A stretch of 64,000 bases of DNA from Natribaculum luteum (lineage in GTDB: Archaea; Halobacteriota; Halobacteria; Halobacteriales; Natrialbaceae), in the NCBI RefSeq assembly GCF_023008545.1, contig NZ_CP095398.1, positions 248,001 to 312,000 of the forward strand, read 5' to 3'. The notes under the pieces were generated by a model that saw only the letters and a program-made list of their open reading frames with translations, was not told where the DNA came from and searched no databases. This document shows positions 12,839-63,196 of the stretch, piece after piece; position 1 is the first letter of the stretch, and every line of letters starts with the position of its first letter. The position numbers and the translations under genes were made by a program.

Positions 12839-13311
12839 CGACAGGAAGAGAGACAACAGCGACCAGCAGGCAACGACGGCTCGCCTCCGTGGCTCCCCGT
12901 TTCGTGGTTTCGTCGTGGGCCGTGTGATCTCGCTACATTATTCATATCACTGAAGAAAATAGCTGTAGGTGACCGATGGAGTCCATCTCGCATCAAGTGT
13001 TCCGACGCAAGCTTCGGAAACTCAGCTACGAACCCGTCATGGTCTTCGTGGCCGACCTCTGGCGTGCCGGGGATGGGAGACGCAGATCGACTGCCGGGTG
13101 ATCACTGTGACACGGTCAGCCGAATCGAGGTCGCAGATGCGTCGTGAGCGACTCGCCGTCAAGGACAGAAGCATCTGGTTCCGAATCTAGCCGGAACGGG
13201 CCGACGCCGTCATCACGCGAAGGGACGGAACACGTATCACAGGTGCCGAGGAGGCAGATGTCGACACGCTCGACACCGCGACTCGCCATGAAAGGTATCC
13301 ACCTACCCGAC

Positions 13312-13633
13312 GAGGCTGTCAAATACCAGATCGAAGCGCTCGGAACCGCGGATGGAGTCCAGGCTGTCTGGGAATTCGAAAGTCACGAGTTCCGCCGCCA
13401 TGCGGGGACGTACAACGGGTTCAAACGAGCTATCCGTTCGAGAACCTGCTCGGCCCACAGCACACCGAGTACGGCCCGGCGTCAGATTCGGGTCGGGGGT
13501 GAGACAGAGTGTGACGGCAACTGGTGCAGACGGTGAACAGTCGAGTTACGTGTTCACGCTGGTGAGTAAGTGTGAAGACGGCAACCGCTGCTGGCGGACG
13601 AATGGACTCGCCGACCAGAATGCGAGACGGTAA
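13312..13633 (+). pseudogene. Relic of a DUF4864/NTF2-like small protein
   Basis: In one frame KYQIEALGTADGVQAVWEFE is followed by SHEFRRHAGTYNGFKRAIRS, like the start of DUF4864-type proteins. After a frameshift near 13440-13500 a second frame gives VTATGADGEQSSYVFTLVSK and then GNRCWRTNGL, like their C-terminal beta-strands. The two halves fit one decayed gene. The rest of the gap from 12839 to 13311 shows nothing I can support. Confidence 0.45.
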
Positions 13634-13663
13634 CGCACGTGCCCTCTGGAGAGTTACCGACTA

Positions 13664-14482
13664 TCAGTTTCGGAAGTAGAGACTGACAGCGATAACTAGC
13701 ATGCTAATGACGAGTGCGACGGTGCTGATCGCGTTGATGACCGGTGACTGCGAGCGTTGGATGGTCGAAAAGATGTACACGGGAAGCGTGTTCTCCACGC
13801 CACTGGTGAAGAACGCGATCAGGAAATCGTCGAACGAGAGAGTGAACGCGAACAGTGCGCCGCTGATGATCCCGGGCGCCAGGAGCGGTAGGGTGACTCT
13901 CCGATAGGTCGTCCATTTACTTGCGCCCAAGTCACGTGCAGCCTCCTCCAGCGTCGGGTCGAATCCCGCGAGCCGAGAACTCACAGTCACCAGCACGAAT
14001 GGGACCACGAACACCAGTTGGCCGATGATAACGGTCCTGAGCGAGCGGGAAATCTCGAGGTAATTGAACATCATCAAAAGGGCGACGCCGAGGATAAGCC
14101 CCGGAATGGTCATCGGGGCGATGACGAGCATCCGATACGTCTGCTTCAGCCGGAAGTTGTGTCGCACGAGCGCAATGGCCCCGAGCGTTCCGAGTACCGT
14201 CCCGAAGAACGTCACGAACAGGGCGACCCACAGACTGTTGATCGTCGCGTTGATCGCTGACGGTGTCTCAAGCAGCGTCTGGTACCACTCAAGGGTAAAC
14301 CCGTCCCATGGGAACCCCGAGAAAGACCCCTTCTCGAACGAGAAGAGCACGATAACGATAATCGGCGTATAGAGAAACAGAATGACGAGGACAGCCCAGA
14401 CTCGCATCCAGTGTCTCTCAACTAGTCGGACCGCTTTCGAGAACCTGTTCTCCTTCGTCGACGGTGGGTTATCAGTACTCAT
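13664..14482 (-). CDS. potC: PotC-type ABC transporter permease (locus A)
   Basis: This 272-residue permease has about six membrane helices and the binding-protein-dependent transport motif EEAARDLGASKWTTYRRVTLP (at about two thirds of the length, 21-residue loop that contacts the ATPase). The N-terminus WAVLVILFLYTPIIVIVLFS and the following Phe-Ser-Gly-Phe-Pro segment are typical of PotC. It starts one base after the stop of the PotB gene, so the two are translationally coupled. With PotB it forms the membrane channel of an importer for polyamines or similar cations. The C-terminus is slightly short, ending SLYFRN. Confidence 0.88.
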   Translation of the reverse strand: MSTDNPPSTKENRFSKAVRLVERHWMRVWAVLVILFLYTPIIVIVLFSFEKGSFSGFPWDGFTLEWYQTLLETPSAINATINSLWVALFVTFFGTVLGTLGAIALVRHNFRLKQTYRMLVIAPMTIPGLILGVALLMMFNYLEISRSLRTVIIGQLVFVVPFVLVTVSSRLAGFDPTLEEAARDLGASKWTTYRRVTLPLLAPGIISGALFAFTLSFDDFLIAFFTSGVENTLPVYIFSTIQRSQSPVINAISTVALVISMLVIAVSLYFRN

Positions 14483-46729: not shown

Positions 46730-47212
46730 ATGGATGAGAAGGACATTCAGATCCTGAAGTCACTTGAAGACCTAGAGACGACGAGTACCGAAGCGGTGAG
46801 TGAAGCGACAGGAATCCCGCTATCGACGATTCACTACCGCCTCAACAATCTCCGAGACGCTGGCATCATTACGAATGATCGATTGGATCTCGACCTCGAC
46901 GAATTTGGCTTAGGAGTGACAGTTCTTGTCCAGATATTCACAAAAAATGATCAATCCCATGCTGAGAGTGGCCGGGTGATCGCCGATATTGAAGGAGTTA
47001 CAAAGGTCTTCTTCACAATGGGAAGCACGGACTTCATTGCATTAGCTCGGCTACCGGGTAGTGATAGCGTTGAACGACTCATTTCTGAGTTCGAAGACCT
47101 CGACCAAGTCGATCGAACGAACTCTACGTTCGTGATCGAGCGAGAACTCGACAGTCATTACCCTCTCCAGCAGTACAGCGAAGAAACCCTTATGAATGAC
47201 TTAATTGAGTGA
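46730..47212 (+). CDS. Lrp/AsnC-family transcriptional regulator
   Basis: This 160-residue protein has an N-terminal winged helix-turn-helix (DEKDIQILKSLEDLETTSTE, then GIPLSTIHYRLNNLRDAGII) and a C-terminal RAM-like ligand domain (IADIEGVTKVFFTMGSTDFI). It probably senses an amino acid and regulates the divergent EamA transporter. Its last 12 bases overlap the end of the convergent HEAT-repeat gene, so the two stops interlock. Confidence 0.87.
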   Translation: MDEKDIQILKSLEDLETTSTEAVSEATGIPLSTIHYRLNNLRDAGIITNDRLDLDLDEFGLGVTVLVQIFTKNDQSHAESGRVIADIEGVTKVFFTMGSTDFIALARLPGSDSVERLISEFEDLDQVDRTNSTFVIERELDSHYPLQQYSEETLMNDLIE

Positions 47213-50200
47213 TCGGTCCCGTCCGTCGGTTCCCGCAGTCGCCAGACACTCTTCGGCGTAAGCCCGAACGTTGGGATCGACGTCGTCCAACCGGTCTTCG
47301 ACGGCGTCGACGACCGTCTCGATCGCGGCCGGATCGACTGTTGCGATCGCTGTCAGCCCCTGGAGTGCTCGCTTGCGGACTGCGACGGCCTCGTGACCGA
47401 CGAGGTCGGCCAGTACCCCGACCGCGGCCGGACGTGCACGGAGGTGGCGCCGACCGAGGTCCGCGACGATCGGCTCGATTCCATACCCGTCGGCGGCGCG
47501 ATCACACCACGAGCGAAGCAGTCGCACGAGCGAGGGCGGCGTCAGTTTTGCCCGGCTACAGGCCGCTACGAGGATATTGCGGACAGCGGTCCAGACCTGC
47601 TCGTGGTCGGCAGTGACCGCCGGCAGGAGATGGGTTATCACCTCGTCGGGCGGGATGAGCTCGCTGTCGGCAAGCGAACCGAGGGTCTCGACCGCTCGAG
47701 ACCGGGTCGTCCAGTTAGGTGCCTCGATCGAGTCGAGTACCGTGTCAACAGCTCGACGTCGGACCGGTGGTTCGTCTACAACCGGTAGGAGCGCCACGAA
47801 CGCGTCGAGTCGGGCCTGCCGACGCCAGCGCTCGGCGAGCTCGAGCCTCGCCAGTTCACGTACCGTGGCCGCAACGAACTCCCGGGGATAGTGGTCGCGG
47901 AGTCGATCCCGGACCGCCGTGACGGCGTCGTCGGAGCCGGTCACGAGGAATCGTGCGGTCACCGTCGGATCGAGTGCAGGCGCGTCGGTCGTCGACGGGA
48001 ACGAGTCGACCGCCGTCGCGTAACAGTCCAGCCCCGCGAGGCCGGCGACCCTCGCGGCAGAGCCGCGGAGTGCTCTGTGCGACAGGTTCACCGTCCCCGA
48101 CTCCTGGGTGCTGGACTCGGTGCCGTAGCTACTGCCGTCGACGTCGAGTATGGACGCGATCGGCTCCGCGAACGGACCGGCAACGTTTGATCCGCTCTCC
48201 GCCACCAGCACGGCGAGCGTCCGATAGACGGCGTCTTCGGCGTGGATGACGGCGACCCTCTCGGACTCGAGAGCGGCGGCGGTGGATTCGAGGGCCTGCC
48301 AGACAGCCTCCGGCCTGACCCGGGCGGACCGCACCAGGAGGTGACCGATCGCGTGCGCCTCGTCGACGTTGCTAGTCGCTTCCAGTCTGTCGACGAGCCA
48401 GTTCAGGATCGAGGGCTGAGTCGCCACCCGGTCGATCGGTGCGTACCCGAGCAACTCGAAGACGGCCTGCCCGCTTGTCCCGACGAGTTCGTCTGCCGGG
48501 AGCAGGTCCAGTGCGAGCTCCGCGTACGCCGGGTCGGCACTCGCGAGGTTCCGCAGGATAGAGAGCAGCCCGTCCTGGAGCGAGGGTCGCATCGCCGAGA
48601 CGGTGGTCCCGTCTAGCTCCGCCGCGACCCGGTCAGGAGCAGTCCGCGCAAGCAGCGAAAGTGCGTACGTCGCGGTTTGAGCGACCGGAAACCGGTCGGT
48701 AAGCAGGTCGATCAGCCGGGGAACCACCCGATCGGACGTGGCCAGCGATCTCGAGTATCGCCTGGTCGCGAATGCGGCCCACTCTCTGACGATAGCGTCG
48801 TCGTCTCGAAGTCGGTCGACGATCGCTACCTCGAGGTCACCGGAGAGCCCGTCCGCCGCGAGGGTCGGTGCCAGAGCGGTCGCGACCGTGATCGCCTGGC
48901 GGCGAAGCCGCGGTGATTTGGAGTCGAGATACGCCACCAGTACGTCCGCCAGCGACGCCGACGGAGATACCGGCTGGTCGGCGAGGCTCGCTAGCGCGTC
49001 GACGGTCTCGTCGTGCCGCGTGCCTGGATCGAGTGCCGTCACCCGGAGCAGGAGGTGGAGGACGACGCGCTCGCGGTGTTCGGGATTCGACGTGGCGACG
49101 GCGACGAGTCGGCGTCGCGCCGCCCGCTCGCGATCGACTGTCGTCGACGCGAGGTCGGCCGCCAGGTCGTCGATCGCTTCTGGATCGGTCACCGCTTCCG
49201 GATCGGGGAGGGGTGACGGATCGGACAGACCGCCGGCGGCAGCGGCGTCTCTAACCGTCGGATCCGGGTGTGATGCGACGACGCCCTCCTGATCGTCGAA
49301 CCCGAAGCTGCTCGATCGCGCCAGCGAGATCCACTTTACGACGGCGTTCGACTCGCTGTACATCATAATCTCGTCGGGAGATCCGATGGTCGACGACAGC
49401 GCGTGTGGGTGCTGATCGCCGAATTCGGCGAGCAGGTCGATGGCCGACCGGTCGACCGCGTGGCCGCCGATCTTCGTGACGATCCGATCCAGGGCCACGA
49501 CCGACTTCGCCGCGCAATCGAGGTGTGTCGCTGCCGGCACGTAGTAGGGCTTCCCGCTAGTCGGATGGTTGTGGGGAAGGATTCCCGCCATCGCGAGGGC
49601 CAGTTCTCGATCCTCGGCGAGCAGCGGTTCGTCCGCTGTGCCCGACCACGACCCAGACCGGAACGCCTGGATCGTCCGTCGGCGGGCCAGCGTAGCCGTC
49701 TCCTGGTCGGTATCGGCCCGCAGGAGACACGTCGCGACAGCCCCCTGGAACTGCCACGATCCCTCCGCCGATTCGAGTGCCGTCCGGAGCCGACCACATT
49801 CCGACGGCGTCAGCGCCAGTTCGTCCGCCGCGATCGCCGCCGAGAGGATGGCCGCAGCCGCCCGTCCGCCCTCGCCACCTTTCGCAACGAGGTCGAACAG
49901 CTCCGTCCGGAGCTCGGCGGCTGCGTGCGGGCGGCGCGTCCCGATCGATTCGAGGGTTTCGGCCGGACCGACGGTCGAACCGTCGTCCTCGGCCGTCACC
50001 TGCCGGCAGCACAGTCGGAGCACCGATACCGCCTCCAGGGGTGCCTGCTCCGTCGCCGCGACCACGGCGTCGGCCGCAACGTCCCGGGCAGTCTCGTGCT
50101 CACTCTCGAGGTAGTCCTCGACGACCGGCGGGACTCGACGATCGAACGCCTCGTTCGTTCCGGCGATGAACCGCAGACCCAGTAGTCCGACCTTCCGTTC

Positions 50201-51598
50201 GTTCGAGGAGGAACTCGTCGCCGCCATCTCGAGTCGCGAGCAGACGCGATCGGCGTCGGCTGCCGTCTCCGCACTGATCCGGGCGATCAACAGCGCTATC
50301 GTCCGGTTCGTGCTGGACCGCAGGTCTCCTTCGATTTCCAGCAGCCACGAGAGGTAGTCGCGTTCGAGGCCGACCTCGTCGACGGCCTCGGCCAGCCGCG
50401 CGATCGCCGGATCGTCGATCCTCGACGGCTGCACTCGCCGGTTGAGGAGGGCCCAGCAGGCGAGCGCGAGGGCGTGGCGTGCGGCCGCTCGAGACCCGAA
50501 CCCGTCGCGAATTGCGACCCAGCAGAGCGCTCGAGCGGCCACGACACGGCATCTAGTGTCCGCTGCGAGCGCCCGACGGAGTGGATCGATCGCCCACGGA
50601 CACGGCTCTCCTGCTTCGATCGCTGCTCTCACCGCGTGGATAGCCTCCGTCGAGACCGAATTCGCGTCGTCGATCGCGTCCCGTAGCTCCGTTTGGAACC
50701 GGCCGACGAGCGACGGATCGGCGGCACAGAGCCGGCGGATCGCACTGACAGCCGCGACCCGGACGTCGTCGTCGGGATCGGCTGCGAGCGCGGCGAGGTC
50801 GTCGTAGTGGTCGGCGACCGCCTCCAGTGCCGCGACGCCGTACCACCCGTCGTCGTTCCGTTCGAGTCCACCGATCCGGCCGATCGCTTCCGCGAACGCC
50901 GTGCGGACGTCCGGGTCGTGGTGATCACTGAGCGTGGCGAATTCCGCCGTAACGGGGACGAGGTCCGGGAGTGCGATTCCGACGTAACCCAGTTCGATGC
51001 AGGCAGTCGCGATCGGCTGCGGGGAGTCGGCATCGAGCGTCCAGATCCGTCCGGCGACGACCGACCGAACGACCGCCGGTTCGGTCCGGCCGATGCGGGC
51101 GAGCGAACAGGTCGCGTGCCACCGGACGCTGCTGTCGTCGGCTCCGATCGCACCGACGAGCGTGGGGAGCAGCCCCTTCACGACGCCGGGAGCGATCGAT
51201 CCGACGTCGCCGACGACTCCACAGGTGAAGTAGACGTTCGTTTCGGCGGGGACGTCGCCACCGCCAAGAACTTGCCGGAAGTGTTCCAGCAGCGGCGTGA
51301 TCGCCGTTGGATCGTCGCGATAGAGCGACCGCAGGTCGTCGCCCTGCGATACGAGCACGCGCTTCCCTGCCGCGGCTGCCGTCGCGATCCGGTCTACGAT
51401 CTCGACCGCCTCGAGGTCGGTCTCCTCGTAGAATTCGGTGAGTCCGTGGAGTGCGTTCGTCCGTACGACCGCGTCCCTCGCCTCGAGCGCGTCCAGGAGT
51501 TTCGCCGTTGCCTCGTCGTCGTCGATGCGGCCTGCCGCCCATCGACTGGTGACGGCGCGGACGTCCGCGGCCGACAACCGGTCGTCGGCCCCGTTCAT
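47201..51598 (-). CDS. Very large HEAT-repeat protein
   Basis: This 1465-residue protein has no recognisable catalytic domain and consists almost entirely of HEAT/armadillo-like helical repeats. Examples are DPDVRTAFAEAIGRIGG, DDDVRVAAVSAIRRL and, near the end, DDVDPNVRAYAEECLATAG. Such solenoids act as scaffolds for protein complexes. I chose the ATG at 51598 because it overlaps the stop of the VWA gene (ATGA) and the upstream 227 in-frame codons are a shadow of that gene. It is the last gene of the MoxR-VWA-HEAT unit, so it may be a scaffold, substrate or effector of the MoxR/VWA pair. No signal peptide or membrane helix is visible. Confidence 0.85.
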   Translation of the reverse strand: MNGADDRLSAADVRAVTSRWAAGRIDDDEATAKLLDALEARDAVVRTNALHGLTEFYEETDLEAVEIVDRIATAAAAGKRVLVSQGDDLRSLYRDDPTAITPLLEHFRQVLGGGDVPAETNVYFTCGVVGDVGSIAPGVVKGLLPTLVGAIGADDSSVRWHATCSLARIGRTEPAVVRSVVAGRIWTLDADSPQPIATACIELGYVGIALPDLVPVTAEFATLSDHHDPDVRTAFAEAIGRIGGLERNDDGWYGVAALEAVADHYDDLAALAADPDDDVRVAAVSAIRRLCAADPSLVGRFQTELRDAIDDANSVSTEAIHAVRAAIEAGEPCPWAIDPLRRALAADTRCRVVAARALCWVAIRDGFGSRAAARHALALACWALLNRRVQPSRIDDPAIARLAEAVDEVGLERDYLSWLLEIEGDLRSSTNRTIALLIARISAETAADADRVCSRLEMAATSSSSNERKVGLLGLRFIAGTNEAFDRRVPPVVEDYLESEHETARDVAADAVVAATEQAPLEAVSVLRLCCRQVTAEDDGSTVGPAETLESIGTRRPHAAAELRTELFDLVAKGGEGGRAAAAILSAAIAADELALTPSECGRLRTALESAEGSWQFQGAVATCLLRADTDQETATLARRRTIQAFRSGSWSGTADEPLLAEDRELALAMAGILPHNHPTSGKPYYVPAATHLDCAAKSVVALDRIVTKIGGHAVDRSAIDLLAEFGDQHPHALSSTIGSPDEIMMYSESNAVVKWISLARSSSFGFDDQEGVVASHPDPTVRDAAAAGGLSDPSPLPDPEAVTDPEAIDDLAADLASTTVDRERAARRRLVAVATSNPEHRERVVLHLLLRVTALDPGTRHDETVDALASLADQPVSPSASLADVLVAYLDSKSPRLRRQAITVATALAPTLAADGLSGDLEVAIVDRLRDDDAIVREWAAFATRRYSRSLATSDRVVPRLIDLLTDRFPVAQTATYALSLLARTAPDRVAAELDGTTVSAMRPSLQDGLLSILRNLASADPAYAELALDLLPADELVGTSGQAVFELLGYAPIDRVATQPSILNWLVDRLEATSNVDEAHAIGHLLVRSARVRPEAVWQALESTAAALESERVAVIHAEDAVYRTLAVLVAESGSNVAGPFAEPIASILDVDGSSYGTESSTQESGTVNLSHRALRGSAARVAGLAGLDCYATAVDSFPSTTDAPALDPTVTARFLVTGSDDAVTAVRDRLRDHYPREFVAATVRELARLELAERWRRQARLDAFVALLPVVDEPPVRRRAVDTVLDSIEAPNWTTRSRAVETLGSLADSELIPPDEVITHLLPAVTADHEQVWTAVRNILVAACSRAKLTPPSLVRLLRSWCDRAADGYGIEPIVADLGRRHLRARPAAVGVLADLVGHEAVAVRKRALQGLTAIATVDPAAIETVVDAVEDRLDDVDPNVRAYAEECLATAGTDGRDRSLN

Positions 51599-53442
51599 GC
51601 TCCCCTCCGGAACAGGCGGCGTGCGAGATGCCCGAGCACAACGTCCAGTTCCGCCGGCGCGGCGTAGACGACCCGATCGAAGTACTGCTCGTGATCGTCG
51701 GGTCCATCGCCCACGTAGACGCCGAAGACCGGGCAGCCACAGCGATCCAGCTGCGCCTTGTACTGTTCGACGTCGTTGGCTTCGCCGTCGGTCACGACGA
51801 TGACGAACGACACCGCCCCGTCTCCCCGACCGACGCGGCGCCGTGCGACGGCCAGTGCGTCCGAGAGCGGCGTCGAGCCACTGGACCGTCCCGTAACGAG
51901 CCGGTCGATCTGCGTCTCCGGATCGACGTCGAACGGCAACTCGAGGCCGACGCGGTGCTCGTACAGCGAGAGGACCGACACGTCGACGCCGAGTGCGTAC
52001 AGGGCGTACGCGAGTTGCGCCGTGGCACCCTCGGCAGCCGTGATCCGATCCGACATCGAGGTCGATCGATCGAGGATCACCTGACACGAGTAGTCCTTCT
52101 CTCGGCCGGGTCGAGTGCGCGTGAACACGCGCTCGGAGCCCCGAACGGCAGCGACGAGGTTCCGCGAGTCGACCGTCCCACGTCGAGCGCCCGAGTACTG
52201 TCTGGGTCGTCGCTCCTGCCGGAGCTGAGCGTCCAGGTCCGTCAGGAGCCGCCTCGCCGACTGTTTGACGGTCGTCCATCGGTCGGTGTCCCCACCTTCC
52301 TCCGCCGGCGGGACGACCAGCACCTCGTCGACCGCGGTCTCCTCATCGCTGACGATCCCGACGAGGCGCTCGACGGTTCGGCGAAACGCGGACGTCGCCT
52401 CGCCGCCGGCGTCTCCCCACCGACGAGCGGCTCGCCGCAACGCGTTTGCACTCGGTTCGTCCTTCCACGACTCCGCGTCGGATTCGTCGGTTCCGGTGCC
52501 TCCGGCGGGGGATCGCCCGCCGTGGCCACCTCTCCTGGCGTCGCTGCTCAATGCATCCGCGCTGTCCGGCGACCACCCGGACACCGCGCGGACATCAGCG
52601 GGCCGGACGTCCGGTGTCTGGAGCCGCTGGCGCTGCAACGGGGGCAGCACTTCGAGTTCCGAGCGGACGAGTTCGAAGAACTCGAACGCACGATCGACTC
52701 GCGCTTTTGGATCGGGTTCCGAGAGCATGTCCTCGACGTACGCCCGCAGATGTGGTTCGATGGATTCGACGATGTCGTGGCGTCCTCCCTTGACGACTCG
52801 TCCCGGTTCCGAGGGATCGATGATCTCGTCGAACCGATTCGCTGCACCGAACTCGTAGTCGAGAATCCCGAACTGAATCGCCTCGAATACGGTGTACGTA
52901 CGGACTGGCGTCTCTCCATCGATGAGACCGAACAACTCGACGTAACGTGCGTGTTTCCGATCGATGGTTGCACCCAGTGTCGCGTTCTTGAGAGCGAAGT
53001 CGTCCCGCAGACGGAGCTCTGCCGCCATCTGGGACTCGATCGCCACGTCTTCGCCTGCATTGTACACGTGCTTGAACAGGTGGATCCACCGCGGATCGAT
53101 CGAGTCGAGGTAGTCGTGGAAGGTGTCGAACCCGGAGTAGCGGACGTGTCCCAGTTCGTGAAAGAGGAAGGCGATCTGCATCGCCCTGTCCCAGATCGCA
53201 GGCTCGAGGTCGGTGTGGACCTGTTCGTACTTTCGGGTCGGAACCAGTACGACGTAGCCGTCGCCATCGTCGTTCAGCCGACATGCGGCTCCCGACGGCT
53301 GGAGACGAACGTCGACGGTCGTCGATCGATCCACACAGAAGTTGACGAGCCGCTGGAGCTCCTCGCGCCGAACCTCGGAGTCACGCTGTCGGCTCCACGA
53401 CTCGTCGATCAGGTCCGGGTCGGTGTCGGGTCCAACGCGCAT
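51595..53442 (-). CDS. VWA-domain protein with an HExxH motif
   Basis: The 615-residue protein has two parts. The N-terminal half (about 1-290) contains FLFHELGHVRYSGFDTFHDY with HELGH at residues 95-99, as in zinc metallopeptidases. After a low-complexity linker (Gly-, Ser- and Asp-rich, about 345-385), the C-terminal part is a von Willebrand A domain with an intact MIDAS: DRSTSMSD at 458-465, Thr near 524 in GSTPLSDAL, and VTDGE near 551-554. VWA proteins next to MoxR ATPases act as adaptors or chaperone cofactors. Whether the HELGH site is active is untested. It starts one base after the MoxR gene ends and its stop overlaps the HEAT gene start. The ATG at 53442 is preferred; the upstream frame is a MoxR shadow. 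Confidence 0.85.
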   Translation of the reverse strand: MRVGPDTDPDLIDESWSRQRDSEVRREELQRLVNFCVDRSTTVDVRLQPSGAACRLNDDGDGYVVLVPTRKYEQVHTDLEPAIWDRAMQIAFLFHELGHVRYSGFDTFHDYLDSIDPRWIHLFKHVYNAGEDVAIESQMAAELRLRDDFALKNATLGATIDRKHARYVELFGLIDGETPVRTYTVFEAIQFGILDYEFGAANRFDEIIDPSEPGRVVKGGRHDIVESIEPHLRAYVEDMLSEPDPKARVDRAFEFFELVRSELEVLPPLQRQRLQTPDVRPADVRAVSGWSPDSADALSSDARRGGHGGRSPAGGTGTDESDAESWKDEPSANALRRAARRWGDAGGEATSAFRRTVERLVGIVSDEETAVDEVLVVPPAEEGGDTDRWTTVKQSARRLLTDLDAQLRQERRPRQYSGARRGTVDSRNLVAAVRGSERVFTRTRPGREKDYSCQVILDRSTSMSDRITAAEGATAQLAYALYALGVDVSVLSLYEHRVGLELPFDVDPETQIDRLVTGRSSGSTPLSDALAVARRRVGRGDGAVSFVIVVTDGEANDVEQYKAQLDRCGCPVFGVYVGDGPDDHEQYFDRVVYAAPAELDVVLGHLARRLFRRGA

Positions 53443-53443
53443 T

Positions 53444-54382
53444 TCAGAGTTGCTTGTCGATGAGCGTTCGAACGAACGACTCGTCGTACTCGTCGACCCG
53501 GGCAACGAGTTCGCTCCGCGTCGCCTCCCGGACAGACATGAACTCACCTTCCATGAACCGGGCGATGCGGACGATCTCGCGGGTCGTGATCGGCGTCGAC
53601 AGTTCGCCGTCCTCGTAGGCCCCCCGGAGCCGATTGGCAAAGGCGACCAACCGCTCGATCTCCGGCCGCTTGCCCTCGTCGAGAGCCGTTCGTTCGAAGA
53701 CGAGGTCGACCTCGACGGACTCCGGCAGGTACTCCAGTTTTACGTGCCGAAAGCGGTCCTCGAAGGCGTCGTTCAGTTCGTAGGTGCCCTGGTAGCCGGG
53801 ATTTGCCGTCGCGACGACCCTGAACTCCGGGTGCGGGTCGATCTGTTCGCCGGTCTGGGGGATGGTGAGCGTCCGGGTTTGCCGTTGTTCCATCACGGCG
53901 TTGAGTGCAGCCACGGTATTGGCGGCCGCGGCGTTGATCTCGTCGAGCAACAGGACCCCGCCTGCGCGGGCGGCACGAGTCAACGGCCCATCGATCCACG
54001 CCGTCTCGGTTTCGCCGCCGTCGGTACTCACCAGGTGCAGCGTCCCCAGCAGGTCCTCGCGGTAGGTCGTCTCCGAGAGGGTGATCCGGTACAGGGGACG
54101 GTTGGTCTGTGCACAGACGTACTTGACCAGGAAGCTCTTGCCAACACCCGGCTGTCCCTTCAGGACGACGTTCATGCCGAGTTCGAGCGCGTGCGTGACC
54201 ACCTCGAGGTCCGTGCGGCCGCCCGCACCCGTCCGCTCGTGATAGGTGTCCTGTGCGAGCGACGGCACGCGCCTGTGGCCGACGTCCTCGAGGATCCCGA
54301 GGTTGCGAAATCGGTCTCCGGTCCGCTCTCCAGCTGACTGAACCGTCTCGGCGCGGGCGACGTTCCCTTCGAGCCCGCTCAT
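53444..54382 (-). CDS. MoxR-family AAA+ ATPase
   Basis: This 312-residue ATPase has Walker A GQPGVGKS (76-83), Walker B VLLLDEIN (143-150), sensor 1 VVATANPGYQGTYELNDAF (from 190) and the arginine-finger region EDRFRHVKLEYLP. The closest relatives by motif are the CbbQ/NirQ/MoxR type, which remodel or activate partner proteins together with VWA proteins. It leads the operon MoxR - VWA - HEAT with a 1-base gap to the VWA gene. I chose the ATG at 54382 (MSGLEGN). It probably forms a hexameric ring in the cytoplasm; substrates are unknown. Confidence 0.88.
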   Translation of the reverse strand: MSGLEGNVARAETVQSAGERTGDRFRNLGILEDVGHRRVPSLAQDTYHERTGAGGRTDLEVVTHALELGMNVVLKGQPGVGKSFLVKYVCAQTNRPLYRITLSETTYREDLLGTLHLVSTDGGETETAWIDGPLTRAARAGGVLLLDEINAAAANTVAALNAVMEQRQTRTLTIPQTGEQIDPHPEFRVVATANPGYQGTYELNDAFEDRFRHVKLEYLPESVEVDLVFERTALDEGKRPEIERLVAFANRLRGAYEDGELSTPITTREIVRIARFMEGEFMSVREATRSELVARVDEYDESFVRTLIDKQL

Positions 54383-54650
54383 GCGTCCCCCCACTCCTTG
54401 CCGATCAGACTGTCACACTTCAGTTCGTCGCAGGTCACAGTCACATTTGATAACAGGTGGATAAAAAACGTAGGCCGGACGCCGTCGCGTGCCGTCTGGA
54501 TCATCGTCGGTCGACTCGTCGGATGCATAGTCTGGCGTCCGATTCGCGGGACGGTGTCCCCGACGTCGCCGGTTTCCCGGACGCGGGCTTTTTACGAGGC
54601 GTTCGAACGACCCCATCGAGCCTGACGTTCACCTCCACCCGCACGTCCGC

Positions 54651-57106: not shown

Positions 57107-57832
57107 TCACTCCACCATCTTGATCGCCCTGATGAGCTCCTCAACTCTGATTCCCCGTGCGACGAGGCGCTCGAAGTCGTCGACGAGGCCACTCACCGGC
57201 GGTTCGACGTCGTCCTTGCCGAATGCTCCGGTCAGTATCGAAACCGCGACGACCAGGTCAGCCCTGGTCACGGGCCTCGAGTCGACAGTCTGGTGAAGGT
57301 CCCAGCGGACCGCGTCGACGACCTCCGTCCGGAGGTGGTCCCTGCTGACTCGCCGGTCGCTCGGAAGGGGCTCCGTCTGCACCCGCGAACCGGCCGACCG
57401 GCTCCGGGTCGATCGAGGGTCTCCCAGTTCGGTTCCGGTGCCGTCGAGAGTGATCGTCCGCCGACCCGTTGTGCCCGTCGCTGACTCGTCGCTCCCCGAC
57501 ACACCGTACTGTCGCGCCGTCGACGGTGACAGTAGCGCAACGGGACCCTCGAGTCGACCATTTAGCCCTGCAGCCAGCGCTCGTCGAAGGTCTTGCCGGA
57601 CAGCACCCGGATCGTCGACGCCGTGGGATGCGAGAGACGTCCGGTCGATCGTTTGCTCGACGACGTCCCGGACAGTCGCTGGGGAAGCGTTCCCCGTAGT
57701 GAGCGCCGGGTCCGACTGGTACCACGCCGCCAGCTTGCGGGCGGTCGACTCGTCGATTCCGGCCCGTCTCAATCGCTCTTTCCATGCCGATTCTACCCAT
57801 TCGTGGTCGTGAAGTTCCTGGTTGTTCGTCAT
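57107..57832 (-). CDS. Conserved-looking protein of unknown function
   Basis: I do not recognise this 241-residue protein. It is mostly helical and charged: HEWVESAWKERLRRAGIDES at the N-terminus, a flexible Ser/Thr/Gly-rich middle (about 120-165) and a helical C-terminus (VSGLVDDFERLVARGIRVEE). No signal peptide, membrane helix or catalytic motif is visible. It lies about 270 bases downstream of the tubulin-like/membrane-protein pair on the same strand and could be part of that unit. The ATG at 57832 is preferred because the upstream frame has no coding character. Confidence 0.6.
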   Translation of the reverse strand: MTNNQELHDHEWVESAWKERLRRAGIDESTARKLAAWYQSDPALTTGNASPATVRDVVEQTIDRTSLASHGVDDPGAVRQDLRRALAAGLNGRLEGPVALLSPSTARQYGVSGSDESATGTTGRRTITLDGTGTELGDPRSTRSRSAGSRVQTEPLPSDRRVSRDHLRTEVVDAVRWDLHQTVDSRPVTRADLVVAVSILTGAFGKDDVEPPVSGLVDDFERLVARGIRVEELIRAIKMVE

Positions 57833-58103: not shown

Positions 58104-59006
58104 TCACAGCTCGAGATCGAACTCGTCGTCTTCCGCTTCGCTGGACGACTCGTCTCGGCTGAACAGCGACGAGACCCGTCCCAGGACCGACTGTCTCGAG
58201 TCGTCCTCGTCCGCCTGATCCTGGTACCCGCTGACGCTGTGTGAGGTGGCGTCCGACTCTTCGACCGCCATCTGCTGTTTGAGGTTCTGGAGTCGTGACG
58301 ACGCGATAGGGTTCTCGACGAGTTGCTCTACGTTTTCGAGCGTCTCAACCCACTCTTCGCGGCGGTCCGAACTCCCGCCGCCTCCCCTGCCGATCGTGAC
58401 GCCGCCGACCAGCCCGACCACGAGTGCGATCGCGCCAGTGCCGGCGAGCCACGACAGGGACACGTCGTCTCTGGCGTTTTGCTTCGGAACGGTCGTGTCG
58501 CCGGTCGCCACGAATTCGGTCGAGAGACGCTGTCCATTGCGCGTGTACCCGACGTCGATATCGGCCACGTCCACGGATTCCGTTTCCGAGACGGTCGTGA
58601 CCGTTTGGAATTCAATGACGACTCGTTCGCCGGGCTGGAGTTCGTCGACGGTGAACTCGTTGCCGCCGGCGTGATCGACCTCGACGGCGTTGTTGCTCGG
58701 AGAGATAGTCGTCGTGTAGCTGTTGGGAACCAGTAACGATTCGGGTTGGCGTTCCATCGCGATCCGCAGGTCGACCAGCGACGCGTCATCGGGCTCGATC
58801 GTCACCCTGACCGTGACCAGGTTCGAGGCCGGGTCCGGGTCGCGCTCGGTCTCGACCTCGAACGGCGCGCCGGGGTCTTCGGCAGTTACCGTGGTGGCGG
58901 CGTCGCCATTCTCCGCTCCCGCCGCCGCGACCGCACCGGCGCCTCCGCCGACCAGCCCGACGACCAACACGACGACCAGTACCAGGTTCGCGTATCGCCC
59001 TCGCAT
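58104..59006 (-). CDS. Single-pass membrane protein with extracellular domain and acidic tail
   Basis: This 300-residue protein has an N-terminal signal peptide (LVLVVVLVVGLVGGGAGAVA, about 8-27), an extracellular beta-rich domain (about 45-180) resembling archaeal secreted COG1361/CARDB-like repeats, one membrane helix at 184-206 (LSWLAGTGAIALVVGLVGGV) and a cytoplasmic tail of about 94 residues. The tail contains a helix (EEWVETLENVEQLVENPIAS) and a very acidic end. It begins two bases after the stop of the tubulin-like gene, so the two are translationally coupled. It is a good candidate for the membrane anchor of the GTPase. No enzyme motif is visible. Confidence 0.8.
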   Translation of the reverse strand: MRGRYANLVLVVVLVVGLVGGGAGAVAAAGAENGDAATTVTAEDPGAPFEVETERDPDPASNLVTVRVTIEPDDASLVDLRIAMERQPESLLVPNSYTTTISPSNNAVEVDHAGGNEFTVDELQPGERVVIEFQTVTTVSETESVDVADIDVGYTRNGQRLSTEFVATGDTTVPKQNARDDVSLSWLAGTGAIALVVGLVGGVTIGRGGGGSSDRREEWVETLENVEQLVENPIASSRLQNLKQQMAVEESDATSHSVSGYQDQADEDDSRQSVLGRVSSLFSRDESSSEAEDDEFDLEL

Positions 59007-59008
59007 CG

Positions 59009-61525
59009 TCAGTCACCCCTCGTCTCGGTGATGGTACCCTGGTCCGGATCCGGGGCGCCGGTCGCTCCGGAGACGAACAGCTGCGGGTACGCGATGTTCT
59101 GCTCGAATGGAACCTCATCCTCGAACAGCTCGTCGAGCGTCCCACACTCCCACCGCTCGTGGATGCGCCGGAGTTCGGACGTGTTCGTCAGGTAGACGTT
59201 CTCGTACAGCGCCACCAGCGTCAGCTCGAACGGAGCGTCGATCCCCTTGACGTCGAGCCGTCGATCGATGTCCTGAGCCGCCATCACCGCTTCGGCGTCC
59301 TGGCCAGACGAGTTCGTCAAGTCCAGGGCGTTCCGGTTGTCGCTATCGGTCAACAGCGCTAGCGTACCCTGTGACATGTTGTTCAGCGAGTTGTGCATGT
59401 AATCCTCGAGAGGCTCGTCGAGGTGACTCGCGAGCGCCTGTCGCAGCGCCTCGACCAGGTCGTCCTGATCGACGACGCCGGCGTCAATGAGGTCGTGGAC
59501 GTTCCCGGCATTTTCCAGGGTGCGCTCGCTGATTTCGTCCATGGAGTCGGTGTTCAGCGGCAGCATCCGGATGGAGTTCTTTCGGTCACCCGTCAGGCGA
59601 TTCTTCGCCGAGGCCAGTTCCGACTCCACGTCCGACTTGTTGTTCCGGAACTCCTGGAGCTCCTCCTCGCGGAGCGTCTCGAGTTCCGCGAGGAGGGCGT
59701 CCCGATGGTTGCGAAGCGTGACCCGGACGTCCGGCAGGAGCTGTTCGTCGAGCGTCTCTCGGAGGTCCACCAGCGACGTGTACTCGTCGTGGAGGTGGTC
59801 GAACACGCCGAGTCGCTGCTCGACGGCGTCGAGTCGATCCTTGAGCGTTCTGCGCACGCCGATGCGGATCGAGCGGGTGTTCTCGCGTTTGGCTTTGATC
59901 GTCGACCGCTTCTCTCGGAGCGCCGGTCGGATCGCCTGCTCGTACTTCTCGACGGCACCGGCGTCGTCGAGACTCGGTGCCCGATCTGTCATCGTCTCGT
60001 TGTTGTCGATCCAGAAGTCCTCCACCTCCGTCACGAACTCGTGGACGTCGAGTTCGTCGTCGATCCGATCGGCGACGAGCTGGTAGAACAGCAGTCTGGC
60101 GATCGTCCCGTGAGGGATCGCATCGTCGTCCCCCTCGATACGGGTGGCGAGTCGATCCGCGTAGGTCCGGAGGTCCTCGGTATCGGCGTCTGCGAGGGCG
60201 AGGTCGTCGATCGTCTGACGGACCCGCTCGAGACGGACCGCGGTCGGCGTGTCGCTCTCGACGATCCCGTCGGCGTGGGTTTCGAGATTCTCGACGGCGA
60301 CGCTGGCGAGCGATAGACTGGTAACCGTCTGTCGGATCCGGCTGAGATCACTCGCGACCGGAGTGCTGAGCTCCTCGATCTCGTTGGACGCTATCCAGTC
60401 TTCGTCTGTCGAGTCCTCGTCCGTCGTCTCCTCTACGTGCGCGAGCAGCCGATCGACCCGATCGACCGAGTCCTCCAGCTCGTCCTCCCACTCCTCGAGT
60501 ACGTCGATCACCTGGTTCAACGCCTCCTGCTCGTCGAACTTCTCGAAGTACGTCGACACCTCGTCGAGAGGAACGCGAACACTGGCTGCCGAGACCGTCA
60601 TGAGTCGGTTGTCGAAGGTCCGCGTGGTGATGTTCTCGAATCCGTCGTCGGTCTGCGTGATCGACAGCACCGCGCTTGCGATCGTCCAGTTGACCCGTTC
60701 GCGGAAGTTCTCGACCTCGTTGTCGCCCCTCCGCGAGGCGTTGTACATCCGTTCCTCGTCGACCGGCAGCAAGAGCAGCGCGTCGAGCGGCGGCTCCGTG
60801 ATCTCGAATTCGTCGTCGAGGACGTTGCTGTCGGGCGCCGCGTCCATCGGCAGCGTAACCGGGTACGGATCCGGGCACTGCCCGGTCTCGTCGGGGATGT
60901 TCAGCAGCGTCGTGAACTGCTGGAGCGAGATGTTGGTATTGACGTACGTCGAGGGGATCGGACCGAGAGTCGTCTGCTGGTGGCGGTGCTCGAACTTCGA
61001 GACCGTCCCCGCGGCCAGTAGCCGGGGCTCGATGTCGTACTGGTCGGCGTAGCTGCCGACGATCCGCTCTACCATGCTACTCAGCAACGGGAACATTCCC
61101 GCGGCAGTGCCCCCGGAGAGTGCACCGATCAGCCACGTCGACAGTTCGTCGGTCTCGTAGGGATCGACGAACTCGCCGAGGATCTGGTCGACGCTGTTGT
61201 AGACGGTCGAGTGGTAGTACTCCAGCAGGAAACGTCCGATCGGGGGCTTGCTGGTAGCACCTTGATTGGCGAGCTCGAGTCTCTCGTCGAGCCAGGGAAC
61301 GTCCGCCTTCAGCTGCTCGAACCGCTGGGCTGCGGCGTCGTCTCGGCGCAGCTCCACCGCCTCCAGGGACTCGGGGACGTCCTCGTCGTCTAGCGCCGCA
61401 GTCTCGATGGAGACGAATTTGAACTGATCGCCGAGCCCGTGCTCGTTGACCAGCCTGTAGAGCGTCCGCGCGGTCCGGAAGCCGCTCGTACCGACCGAAA
61501 TGATGAGGTGCTTTCGTTCACTCAT
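59009..61525 (-). CDS. Tubulin/FtsZ-superfamily GTPase-like protein with long helical C-terminus
   Basis: This 838-residue protein begins HLIISVGTSGFRTARTLYRL, the nucleotide-binding strand and loop of tubulin-like proteins. Residues 134-144 (GALSGGTAAGM) match the tubulin signature GGGTG(S/T)G, and TYVNTNISLQQFTTLLNIPD lies where the switch/T-loop helix occurs. This fits the divergent tubulin-like (Pfam Tubulin_2 / FtsZ-like) families rather than CetZ or canonical FtsZ. From about residue 330 to 780 it is mainly helical with likely coiled coils (LETLREEELQEFRNNKSDVE). I chose the ATG at 61525 because family similarity starts there and the 119 upstream codons look non-coding. It is followed two bases later by a membrane protein gene, suggesting a membrane-associated filament or scaffold. 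Confidence 0.75.
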   Translation of the reverse strand: MSERKHLIISVGTSGFRTARTLYRLVNEHGLGDQFKFVSIETAALDDEDVPESLEAVELRRDDAAAQRFEQLKADVPWLDERLELANQGATSKPPIGRFLLEYYHSTVYNSVDQILGEFVDPYETDELSTWLIGALSGGTAAGMFPLLSSMVERIVGSYADQYDIEPRLLAAGTVSKFEHRHQQTTLGPIPSTYVNTNISLQQFTTLLNIPDETGQCPDPYPVTLPMDAAPDSNVLDDEFEITEPPLDALLLLPVDEERMYNASRRGDNEVENFRERVNWTIASAVLSITQTDDGFENITTRTFDNRLMTVSAASVRVPLDEVSTYFEKFDEQEALNQVIDVLEEWEDELEDSVDRVDRLLAHVEETTDEDSTDEDWIASNEIEELSTPVASDLSRIRQTVTSLSLASVAVENLETHADGIVESDTPTAVRLERVRQTIDDLALADADTEDLRTYADRLATRIEGDDDAIPHGTIARLLFYQLVADRIDDELDVHEFVTEVEDFWIDNNETMTDRAPSLDDAGAVEKYEQAIRPALREKRSTIKAKRENTRSIRIGVRRTLKDRLDAVEQRLGVFDHLHDEYTSLVDLRETLDEQLLPDVRVTLRNHRDALLAELETLREEELQEFRNNKSDVESELASAKNRLTGDRKNSIRMLPLNTDSMDEISERTLENAGNVHDLIDAGVVDQDDLVEALRQALASHLDEPLEDYMHNSLNNMSQGTLALLTDSDNRNALDLTNSSGQDAEAVMAAQDIDRRLDVKGIDAPFELTLVALYENVYLTNTSELRRIHERWECGTLDELFEDEVPFEQNIAYPQLFVSGATGAPDPDQGTITETRGD

Positions 61526-62269
61526 GGTATCGTGGATGCGATGCGCGTCTATCCGTCGCCACACTCGAAGTCGGAGTGCGATCACCGGCACGGATGTCGG
61601 GCCGTCGTCGCCGAGCGCGCATCTGATCGAGCAGACGGACTCGGAACGGGTGGCTGTTGATCTTGCCCCCCGTTCAACGTCGGGTTTATGTGTTCGTACG
61701 TCGACGAACGTCCGCACGCCAGTCGTCCAGTGTCGAGGGCGGCTCGCTTCGGGTCCTCGTCGGGACCCGCAGAAAACTACACCAGTGGTCGAACTGTTGA
61801 TCGATCCGACGGCCGAGCCACGACGATGGGAGTAGTGACACCTATCCGATGACTTGGCAGACGAGAGAAGCAGTGTTGACATCCACTCATGACTGACGTC
61901 CTGTCTCTTCCCCAGACGTCGGAGTCTCGCGAAGTCGGCGTTTCAGAGACTCTCGAGACCGGCGAGCACGAGCTGAGACCCACCGGAAGAGAGACGAGAT
62001 CGACGCCTGGTCACGGAGAGTGGTACTCGAGTCGACTGCCTGTGGATCCAAAATCACGGGTTTTCGCCGGGTGAAGTCGCTGAATACTGGTGTCTCGATA
62101 GTCACTCTCCGGTGAATCGCTCACAGATTGGTGGCGCAACGTGTGGGTAAGAGACAGGACTTCAGTCGTGGGTGTTCTCCTCAAACCGCTGTTATGCGTG
62201 CTTTCGGCCAGTCTATCCAAATATTCGCGTTTCCTGTGAGGGCTAACCGACCCTCAGACGACTCGACGG
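61526..62269. other. Long intergenic region upstream of the tubulin-like operon
   Basis: About 740 bases contain no supported gene. Within it, 61878-61904 carries a 27-bp block repeated, with five mismatches, at 62658-62684. The region is the likely promoter and control area of the tubulin-like/membrane-protein pair. Confidence 0.45.
61878..61904. repeat. 27-bp dispersed motif, copy 1
   Basis: The block GACATCCAC....GACTGACGTC..TGT occurs here and, with few changes, at 62658-62684. A related GACTGACGTCC lies inverted near 56167. The position upstream of operons suggests a regulatory site. Confidence 0.45.
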
Positions 62270-62527
62270 CTACTGCGCGAACTGGAGGAGGAAGAACCAG
62301 GCAGCGGCGGCCTGCTCGTCGTGTGGGACGTCCTGGCCGTCGAGGAGATCGTTCATCTCCGCGACGTGTTCTCCGATCGTCTGCATTGCGGTCATCTTGT
62401 CTTCGTGTTTCTCCACGGACTGCTTGATCGCGCCACCTGCAACGGTTCCGATCCGTTCGAGATCCGCTTCGAAGTCATTTTGTGCGGACTGGTTGTCGGT
62501 CTCGCTCGCGTAGTGGTTTGCGGACAT
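62270..62527 (-). CDS. Small acidic helical protein of unknown function
   Basis: I do not recognise this 85-residue protein. It is rich in Asp, Glu and Ala with helical segments (DFEADLERIGTVAGGAIKQS, and HEDKMTAMQTIGEHVAEMND) and ends with a hydrophobic AAAAWFFLLQFAQ. There is no cysteine, signal or membrane helix. The ATG at 62527 follows AACTGCG; a nearly identical AACCGCG precedes the start of the acidic protein at 63196, so these two genes share a leader. It may be an accessory partner of the tubulin-like pair. Confidence 0.55.
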   Translation of the reverse strand: MSANHYASETDNQSAQNDFEADLERIGTVAGGAIKQSVEKHEDKMTAMQTIGEHVAEMNDLLDGQDVPHDEQAAAAWFFLLQFAQ

Positions 62528-62725: not shown

Positions 62726-63196
62726 TCAATGGAACGCCGGATCCGTTGGCGGCTCCTCGACCTTCTCATCGTCCGAGAAGAGCGCGCTCGAGGACCGCTC
62801 TGCGCTCTCGGCCCCATCACCGTCTTCGTCTGCGGTACCAGTCTCCCCTTCGTCGGTATCCTGGTTCGCCTCCTCCATCACTTCCACTATATATTCCAGT
62901 TCGCTCCACAGCGCAACCGCAACCTCGGCAACGGTCACCTCCTCGTGCTCGTGCGTCAATTTGCGAAGCTGTGAGCCAAGGTCGTCGTGGAGTTGCTGGG
63001 CGACCTCGCTGTCCACCCGTCGCTGGGCGATTATCTCCGTGACGGTCTCGGTGATCCGTTCACCCTGCTCGTCGATACGGACAGCAACGTCGGTTCCTTC
63101 GTCGCTCGGCGTGTTCGGAGACGGGCTGTTCCCCTCGTCGGTATCGTTCTGCCAGTTCTCGTCGCCCTTGGTCGGAGTCTCGGAGTCGGTCGACAT
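62726..63196 (-). CDS. Acidic protein of unknown function with a central helical region
   Basis: I do not recognise this 156-residue protein. Both ends are low-complexity and acidic (about 1-35 and 115-156, presumably disordered), and the centre is helical: RIDEQGERITETVTEIIAQR, then QLHDDLGSQLRKLTHEHEEV. The charge bias is stronger than expected for a normal haloarchaeal cytoplasmic protein. The start shares its AACCGCG-ATG leader with the 85-residue gene. It is divergent from a zinc-ribbon gene at 63388. No function is assigned. Confidence 0.55.
   Translation of the reverse strand: MSTDSETPTKGDENWQNDTDEGNSPSPNTPSDEGTDVAVRIDEQGERITETVTEIIAQRRVDSEVAQQLHDDLGSQLRKLTHEHEEVTVAEVAVALWSELEYIVEVMEEANQDTDEGETGTADEDGDGAESAERSSSALFSDDEKVEEPPTDPAFH

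Follow-up and report, generated by a model that had tools for sequence, protein, structure and literature searches.

Results

A stretch of 64,000 nucleotides of the haloarchaeon Natribaculum luteum (contig NZ_CP095398.1, positions 248,001 to 312,000; hereafter the window) encodes a divergent tubulin-like protein of the FtsZl1 family together with a single-pass membrane protein, here called the anchor, and this pairing is nearly obligatory among the haloarchaeal genomes that carry FtsZl1. In one FtsZl1 clade, to which the window protein belongs, the pair is accompanied by genes for ubiquitin-like proteins (Ubls) and for E1 and E2-like enzymes. We put the odds at about even (roughly 0.5) that FtsZl1 forms a GTP-dependent polymer that is tethered to the membrane and controlled by Ubl tagging, and that it serves in stress or conflict and not in the housekeeping of cell shape. 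The FtsZl1 family was already known; we came across no account of its Ubl-coupled variant in the open-licence literature searched. Genomes and loci are given by our own G and L numbers where they need to be told apart. The pair comprises the following features:

59009..61525, minus strand: FtsZl1/Tubulin_2 protein of 838 residues (Pfam PF13809, AlphaFold2 model and Foldseek; the ATG start is common to the homologues)
60536..61525, minus strand: tubulin-like core, residues about 1-330 (Foldseek, about 330 aligned columns to CetZ2/FtsZ)
61097..61117, minus strand: T4 phosphate-binding loop SGGTAAG, residues 137-143 (GGTxxG invariant in the homologue alignment)
60428..60568, minus strand: long helix, residues 320-366, candidate coiled coil (AlphaFold2 secondary structure)
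59591..59863, minus strand: 91-residue helix, residues 555-645, candidate central coiled coil (AlphaFold2 secondary structure)
58104..59006, minus strand: single-pass membrane partner (anchor) of 300 residues (two-base gap to FtsZl1; family kept beside FtsZl1)
58497..58889, minus strand: anchor ectodomain, predicted Ig-like beta-sandwich, residues 40-170 (AlphaFold2; Foldseek)
58392..58451, minus strand: anchor transmembrane helix, residues 186-205 (hydropathy and AlphaFold2 helix)
58107..58244, minus strand: acidic cytoplasmic tail of the anchor, residues 255-300, ending EDDEFDLEL (sequence; the G045 counterpart ends EDDEFDIEL)

A divergent tubulin-like protein

The 838-residue protein matches Tubulin_2 (PF13809) in Pfam over residues 30-161 with 29.8 bits (E 4.7e-7), above the cut-off of 27 bits for that family, and gives no match to PF00091 (Tubulin) at E<=1. 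A longer frame of 957 residues is present over the gene; the start used by the homologues is the ATG at 61525. Since membership of CetZ calls for a PF00091 domain and a length of about 350-450 residues, the protein falls outside that family. A sequence search of solved structures returned no match and a search of NCBIfam nothing meaningful. An AlphaFold2 model built on an alignment of 14 sequences (pLDDT 73.6, pTM 0.62) was compared with the PDB using Foldseek, and all 50 of the matches listed belong to the FtsZ/CetZ/tubulin superfamily, the best among those listed being CetZ2 of Haloferax volcanii (E 1.3e-6, about 330 aligned columns). Because the target-normalised TM-scores are about 0.3-0.5, the predicted core is recognisably but loosely tubulin-like. 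The initial annotation, which was made from the sequence alone, had assigned the protein to the tubulin superfamily and had proposed that the assignment be judged by whether a structure prediction contains a tubulin-like Rossmann core; the Tubulin_2 match above cut-off and the predicted CetZ2/FtsZ/tubulin-like fold both bear it out. The two reading frames, of 838 and 300 residues, and the gap between them are exactly as described there, and the tubulin signature SGGTAAG that it put at about residues 134-144 lies at 137-143.

Invariant in six close homologues are G12 and G15 of the T1 loop, G138, G139, T140 and G143 of the T4 loop, and N279, which sits in a predicted helix after the segment LLLLPVDEER; we infer that this segment and helix correspond to S6-T6-H7. 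In the FtsZl1 proteins that we checked the T4 loop reads GGGTGSG with few exceptions, and in the clade of the window protein it reads [SA]GGT[AG][AP]G. Set against the family consensus GGGTG(S/T)G, the window protein retains the GGTxxG that is invariant across its homologues, and to judge from the alignment its SGGTAAG is a trait of the clade.

Coiled coils were judged from the helices of the AlphaFold2 model. The two long helices, followed by a mostly helical C-terminal region that extends to about residue 801, agree with the layout of the FtsZl1 family, in which a central extended coiled coil precedes a helical C-terminal domain. A coiled-coil C-terminus absent from FtsZ and CetZ had been described for this protein at the outset; the absence holds, but the candidate coiled coils are central, as is standard for FtsZl1. 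In comparison with a 99% identical copy in Natribaculum longum, the nonsynonymous and synonymous rates are dN 0.0037 and dS 0.029 for FtsZl1 and dN 0.0045 and dS 0.018 for the anchor; both genes look to be under purifying selection, the evidence for the anchor being weak owing to its few substitutions.

A membrane partner encoded beside FtsZl1

The stop codon of FtsZl1 is followed after two bases by the start codon of the anchor (TGA-CG-ATG). AlphaFold2 predicts an N-terminal hydrophobic helix (signal peptide), a beta-sandwich at residues 40-170 with block means mostly of 65-92, the transmembrane helix, further helices at residues 212-255 and a disordered acidic tail, and model and hydropathy thus agree with the original description of a signal-peptide, single-pass neighbour with an acidic tail. 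For the ectodomain, Foldseek gives matches of low TM-score to beta-sandwiches of adhesins (Ig-like) and of adaptin ears, and on this predicted fold we call it Ig-like only.

A profile of nine anchor-family members was searched against 391 haloarchaeal genomes. FtsZl1 is present in 22 of them (6%) and the anchor family in 18, all 18 among the 22 with FtsZl1, and no anchor was found by the profile outside the FtsZl1 genomes (Fisher p 1.5e-27, relatedness of the genomes ignored). The two genes lie within about 620 bp of each other in 16 of the 18 genomes and 1.8 kb apart in the other two. The pairing covers several families of the order and is nearly obligatory, so that the membrane-protein neighbour, whose recurrence at homologous loci had been named as a second check, is indeed kept. 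FtsZl1 stop and anchor start nearly touch or overlap in N. luteum, G045, G055 and G010; the anchor is downstream in the clade of the window protein and upstream in Halorubellus and Halobellus. A signal-beta-transmembrane protein that adjoins FtsZl1 in G330 was missed by the profile, G283 has a weak anchor candidate beside FtsZl1, in G407 FtsZl1 is cut off by the end of the contig, and at the FtsZl1 locus of G423 no anchor was seen. On a plasmid of Halobellus limi the pair stands alone among metabolic genes, without any of the other companions described below.

Two or three nearby FtsZl1 paralogues of 765-783 and 947-957 residues occur at each of three loci (L062, L063 and L064, in G307, G234 and G327), with a weak anchor homologue between them; these paralogues are possibly hetero-polymer pairs. 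Ordinary PF00091 (FtsZ/CetZ-type) genes are present in all 23 FtsZl1 genomes searched, and therefore FtsZl1 is an additional system and no replacement for ordinary FtsZ/CetZ.

A ubiquitin-like cassette in one FtsZl1 clade

The initial annotation missed the Ubl/E2/E1 locus around the pair. In G045 one strand encodes, in order, a helical-repeat protein, a 620-residue protein, a protein of roughly 250-300 residues, a Ubl, an E2-like protein, a second Ubl, an E2, a ThiF E1, a 250-residue protein, FtsZl1 and the anchor. The replicon of the window has the same set, partly outside the window:

G000:C2:322137-323626 (L023:137-1626), beyond the window: two Ubls and two E2-like proteins
G000:C2:320339 to about 322147 (L019:14339-16000), beyond the window: JAMM-E1 fusion

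The cassette is found in the clusters of N. luteum, G045, Haloferax marisrubri (G205) and G407, representing four genera, and a Ubl and an E2-like protein lie near FtsZl1 in G055 and in Haloarchaeobius (G010). In the FtsZl1 tree, from which G407 is left out as a partial sequence, the Ubl-linked proteins form one clade with 100/100 support.

Motifs and alignments identify a ThiF E1, an E2 with a catalytic-type cysteine, a beta-grasp Ubl and a JAMM peptidase. In the E1 fusion both the JAMM motif at the N-terminus (HSHPx7SxxD) and the nucleotide loop (GLGGLG) are intact; the G045 E1 matches ThiF in Pfam at E 3e-44, and that of N. luteum is 67% identical to it. One E2 carries its cysteine in YC-x-H....WxP, as in true E2s, and the second, E2-like protein lacks the cysteine and is UEV-like. 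The Ubls end in VFG plus 0-2 residues. A hydrophobic C-terminal tail is present in all four E1-JAMM proteins encoded beside FtsZl1 and in none of six encoded without it, the 15-residue mean hydropathy of the tail among these ten proteins being 1.8-2.5 beside FtsZl1 and at most 0.5 elsewhere; the N. luteum tail is the shortest and weakest of the four. From these tails, the Ubl kit beside FtsZl1 looks membrane-anchored.

The six further haloarchaeal Ubl-(E2)-JAMM-E1 cassettes that lack both FtsZl1 and a hydrophobic E1 tail are at L099, L100, L101, L102, L103 and L104, and some of their Ubls terminate exactly at FG.

Discussion

In the explanation that we favour, FtsZl1 would bind GTP and polymerise on the inner face of the membrane, to which the cytoplasmic helices and tail of the anchor would recruit it, much as ZipA or SepF tethers FtsZ, and the anchor ectodomain would sense or bind something at the envelope. 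The tail-anchored E1 would activate the Ubl, which the JAMM domain would trim to ...FG, and the E2 and UEV-like proteins would conjugate it at the membrane to FtsZl1, to the anchor or to a captured target. Through such tagging, the polymer would be assembled, taken apart or put to use as a scaffold when the cell responds to stress or conflict. We prefer a response of this kind to housekeeping shape because FtsZl1 occurs in 6% of the genomes, the location is plasmid-like and companions recur in the NTP-dependent conflict systems that Kaur et al. described in 2020 (PMC7159879). Only tentatively do we go as far as a tubulin-superfamily polymer that is built, broken or aimed by Ubls at an archaeal membrane, with the tail-anchored JAMM-E1, the E2/UEV-like pair and two FG-ending Ubls all acting on tethered FtsZl1; if true, a single stress or immune machine of a prokaryote would unite a tubulin-like with a ubiquitin-like system.

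Several observations count against this explanation. The T6-H7 elements, which FtsZ filaments use, could not be aligned in FtsZl1 by Makarova and Koonin (PMC2875224), and SGGTAAG lacks the canonical first G and the S/T of the T4 loop, so that GTP hydrolysis may be weak or absent. The Pfam matches for the E2 and Ubl are weak and under cut-off, and these assignments therefore rest on motif, synteny and alignments. Because most of the FtsZl1-anchor pairs examined have no Ubl cassette nearby, the coupling is a trait of one FtsZl1 clade, and it is a link by location only. The Ubls of G055 and G010 end in VFR and no E1 was found near them, which suggests decay or another use. PADLOC returned no meaningful defence match. 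Finally, the sequence features, predicted fold, synteny and co-occurrence were computed, and from these we infer polymerisation, tethering, conjugation and purpose.

The initial annotation had proposed a membrane-remodelling or cell-shape device, and a membrane-associated polymer remains likely. A cytoskeleton in which FtsZl1 uses its own anchor to pull on or bend the membrane, the Ubl genes being regulators or bystanders, would account for the near-obligate transmembrane partner and the tubulin fold, and also for the lone pair of Halobellus limi, and it has a precedent in the published vesicle and membrane-remodelling proposal for FtsZl1. As a purpose, however, shape is rather unlikely: the locus, its patchy presence in 22 of 391 genomes and the secondary replicon of N. 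luteum point more to stress or conflict, the linked genes are a Ubl cassette in this clade and Hsp70, GrpE and VWA genes in others and not recognised envelope or shape genes, and CetZ/FtsZ-type proteins are already present in these genomes. In another alternative, the FtsZl1-anchor pair alone makes up the functional unit and the cassette beside it is unrelated. In its favour, most of the FtsZl1 loci examined have the pair and no cassette; we consider it somewhat improbable given that cassette and pair occur together in four genera within one FtsZl1 clade and that the E1 tail is specific to FtsZl1 loci.

An explanation that overlaps with the favoured one but commits to immunity would make the locus a haloarchaeal relative of the Kaur et al. 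systems, in which FtsZl1 multimerises as the effector or scaffold of a response to viruses, the anchor acts as the sensor, and the threshold is set by Hsp70-GrpE-VWA or by Ubl conjugation. Tubulin, VWA, HSP70/GrpE and Ubl parts of those systems do recur here, an adaptor-like helical domain is repeated in several cluster proteins, and the distribution is patchy and often plasmid-borne. Against this, the neighbouring proteins scanned gave no DO-GTPase or GAP1 Pfam match, neither a recognised toxic effector nor defence-island neighbours were noticed, and PADLOC was silent; a dedicated immune role is possible but doubtful. We reject a TubZ-like role in partition of the 862-kb replicon as highly improbable. 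The secondary replicon here and the plasmids of N. longum and Halobellus limi would suit it, but there is no tubC-like iteron array, no TubR-like gene was noticed in the open reading frame and Pfam lists, homologues are found on contigs of 3-4 Mb (G102, G142 and G283), and a membrane anchor is encoded alongside.

FtsZl1 was described in 2010 by Makarova and Koonin (PMC2875224), with Huta_2051 of Halorhabdus utahensis as founding member, in an account that noted vWA, kinase, GTPase and membrane-protein neighbours and proposed membrane remodelling. The link to that work made at the outset was correct, but the suggestion of a possible haloarchaeal variant undersells it, the founding member being itself haloarchaeal. 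In common with the family, whose members often adjoin vWA and membrane-protein genes, the window protein has an FtsZ-like domain at its N-terminus, long helices in the centre and a helical domain at the C-terminus; its clade differs in the T4 loop, and in having the Ubl/E2/UEV-like/JAMM-E1 cassette, absent from the 2010 description, and a dedicated single-pass Ig-like anchor. CetZ1 and CetZ2 of Haloferax volcanii are likewise haloarchaeal members of the tubulin superfamily, and CetZ2 is the closest solved fold among the matches listed, but the window protein has about 500 extra residues, mostly helices, is encoded with an anchor, and coexists with separate PF00091 proteins. A survey of the tubulin superfamily in 2023 set Tubulin_2 proteins aside as divergent.

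Among the systems of Kaur et al., tubulin, VWA and HSP70/GrpE belong to GTPase-centric systems and Ubl cassettes to FtsH-ternary systems. The tubulin with a helical or coiled-coil extension, VWA, HSP70 and GrpE of the former recur in G007, G055, G010, G202 and G142, whereas the archaeal locus described here has a Ubl cassette instead, VWA only at a distance and no DO-GTPase or GAP1 seen. FtsH-ternary, CBASS type II and Bil-type systems also encode prokaryotic Ubl, E2, E1 and JAB peptidase together; here JAB and E1 are fused and bear a hydrophobic tail, the E2 is paired with a cysteine-less E2-like protein, the Ubls end in FG, the partner is tubulin-like, and no FtsH, cGAS or RING was noticed. 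SAMP, UbaA and HvJAMM1 of Haloferax exemplify haloarchaeal Ubl modification with a JAMM peptidase, but the present cassette adds an E2 and a UEV-like protein, and its Ubl lacks a conserved diglycine end. To our knowledge, no E2 is known or needed for SAMP conjugation. In the literature of 2010, archaeal E2 enzymes were reported as undetected, and one methanogen was mentioned as having a Jab-E1 fusion; an E1/E2/E3 cascade of an uncultured archaeon was later reconstituted (PMC5654768). No report combining tubulin with Ubl or JAB/ThiF was found in the open-licence papers searched, and the combination may have been described in other papers.

FtsZl1 occurs widely in bacteria and is present in some archaea, and in the papers found its function and mechanism have been a matter of prediction since 2010. 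Here the family comes with its own anchor in organisms amenable to genetics (FtsZl1 is carried by Haloferax marisrubri and Haloferax marinum), so that polymerisation, localisation and dependence on the anchor can be tested directly. With the linked cassette, haloarchaea gain an E2 and a UEV-like protein, and tubulin-like and ubiquitin-like components would be joined in a single prokaryotic machine.

Other neighbours and genomic setting

The window is part of a secondary replicon of 861,699 bp (G000:C2) in a 4.6-Mb genome, and a 760-kb plasmid of N. longum (CP095395.1) carries most of the cluster at 97-99% identity. A contig scan with a single FtsZl1 sequence gave nothing, and a scan with an alignment gave matches; a comparison with phages produced no match. 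Further features around the pair are:

57107..57832, minus strand: helical-repeat-domain protein directly downstream of the anchor (homologous copies in the same cluster and in G045, some tandem)
L023:12893-13999; L014:2-757 and 12918-13979: further copies of the recurring helical domain
62726..63196, minus strand: conserved companion of 156 residues, family ending DPAF[HQ] (G045 homologue directly upstream of FtsZl1)
62270..62527, minus strand: conserved companion of 85 residues (homologues in the G045, G205 and G407 clusters)
47201..54394, minus strand: MoxR AAA+, VWA (HELGH zincin-type motif and DxSxS) and HEAT-repeat genes (Pfam, motifs; link weak)
G000:C2:311540-319687, plus strand: second MoxR-VWA-HEAT set (the two sets flank the cluster)

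The helical domain (VEEVWQRRLREAGLDETTAK...) recurs in several proteins of the cluster, in tandem in some, and may be an adaptor domain; by analogy, its logic would resemble what Kaur et al. describe for effector-associated domains. HELGH and DxSxS are invariant in the VWA proteins of both MoxR-VWA-HEAT sets. Relatives of these VWA proteins occur in 37 genomes and are thus commoner than FtsZl1; they are full-length in 10, of which three have FtsZl1 (p 0.014). With this overlap, and with the second set mostly deleted in CP095395.1, the case for MoxR-VWA-HEAT as a core part is weakened and we treat both sets as optional companions. The VWA gene of the window is about 5 kb from FtsZl1 and not directly adjacent to it; VWA genes are close by in G007, G055, G010, G202, G142 and G068. 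In the first five of these, the neighbours are Hsp70, GrpE, the VWA protein and a conserved protein of the 399-residue type, Hsp70 being absent from the stretch read for G142.

Proteins of about 2000-2335 residues with weak HEAT-like matches lie beside Ubl/FtsZl1 clusters at L023:2180-9187, L020:8957-15040 and L075:4182-10469. A tRNA of undefined type (tRNA-???, anticodon cgtc) called by ARAGORN at 61725-61819 was set aside as probably an artefact. The gap upstream of FtsZl1 holds a 36-nt inverted repeat (61884-61919 and 62139-62174, 86% complementary, 219 nt apart), which might be the remnant of a small mobile element.

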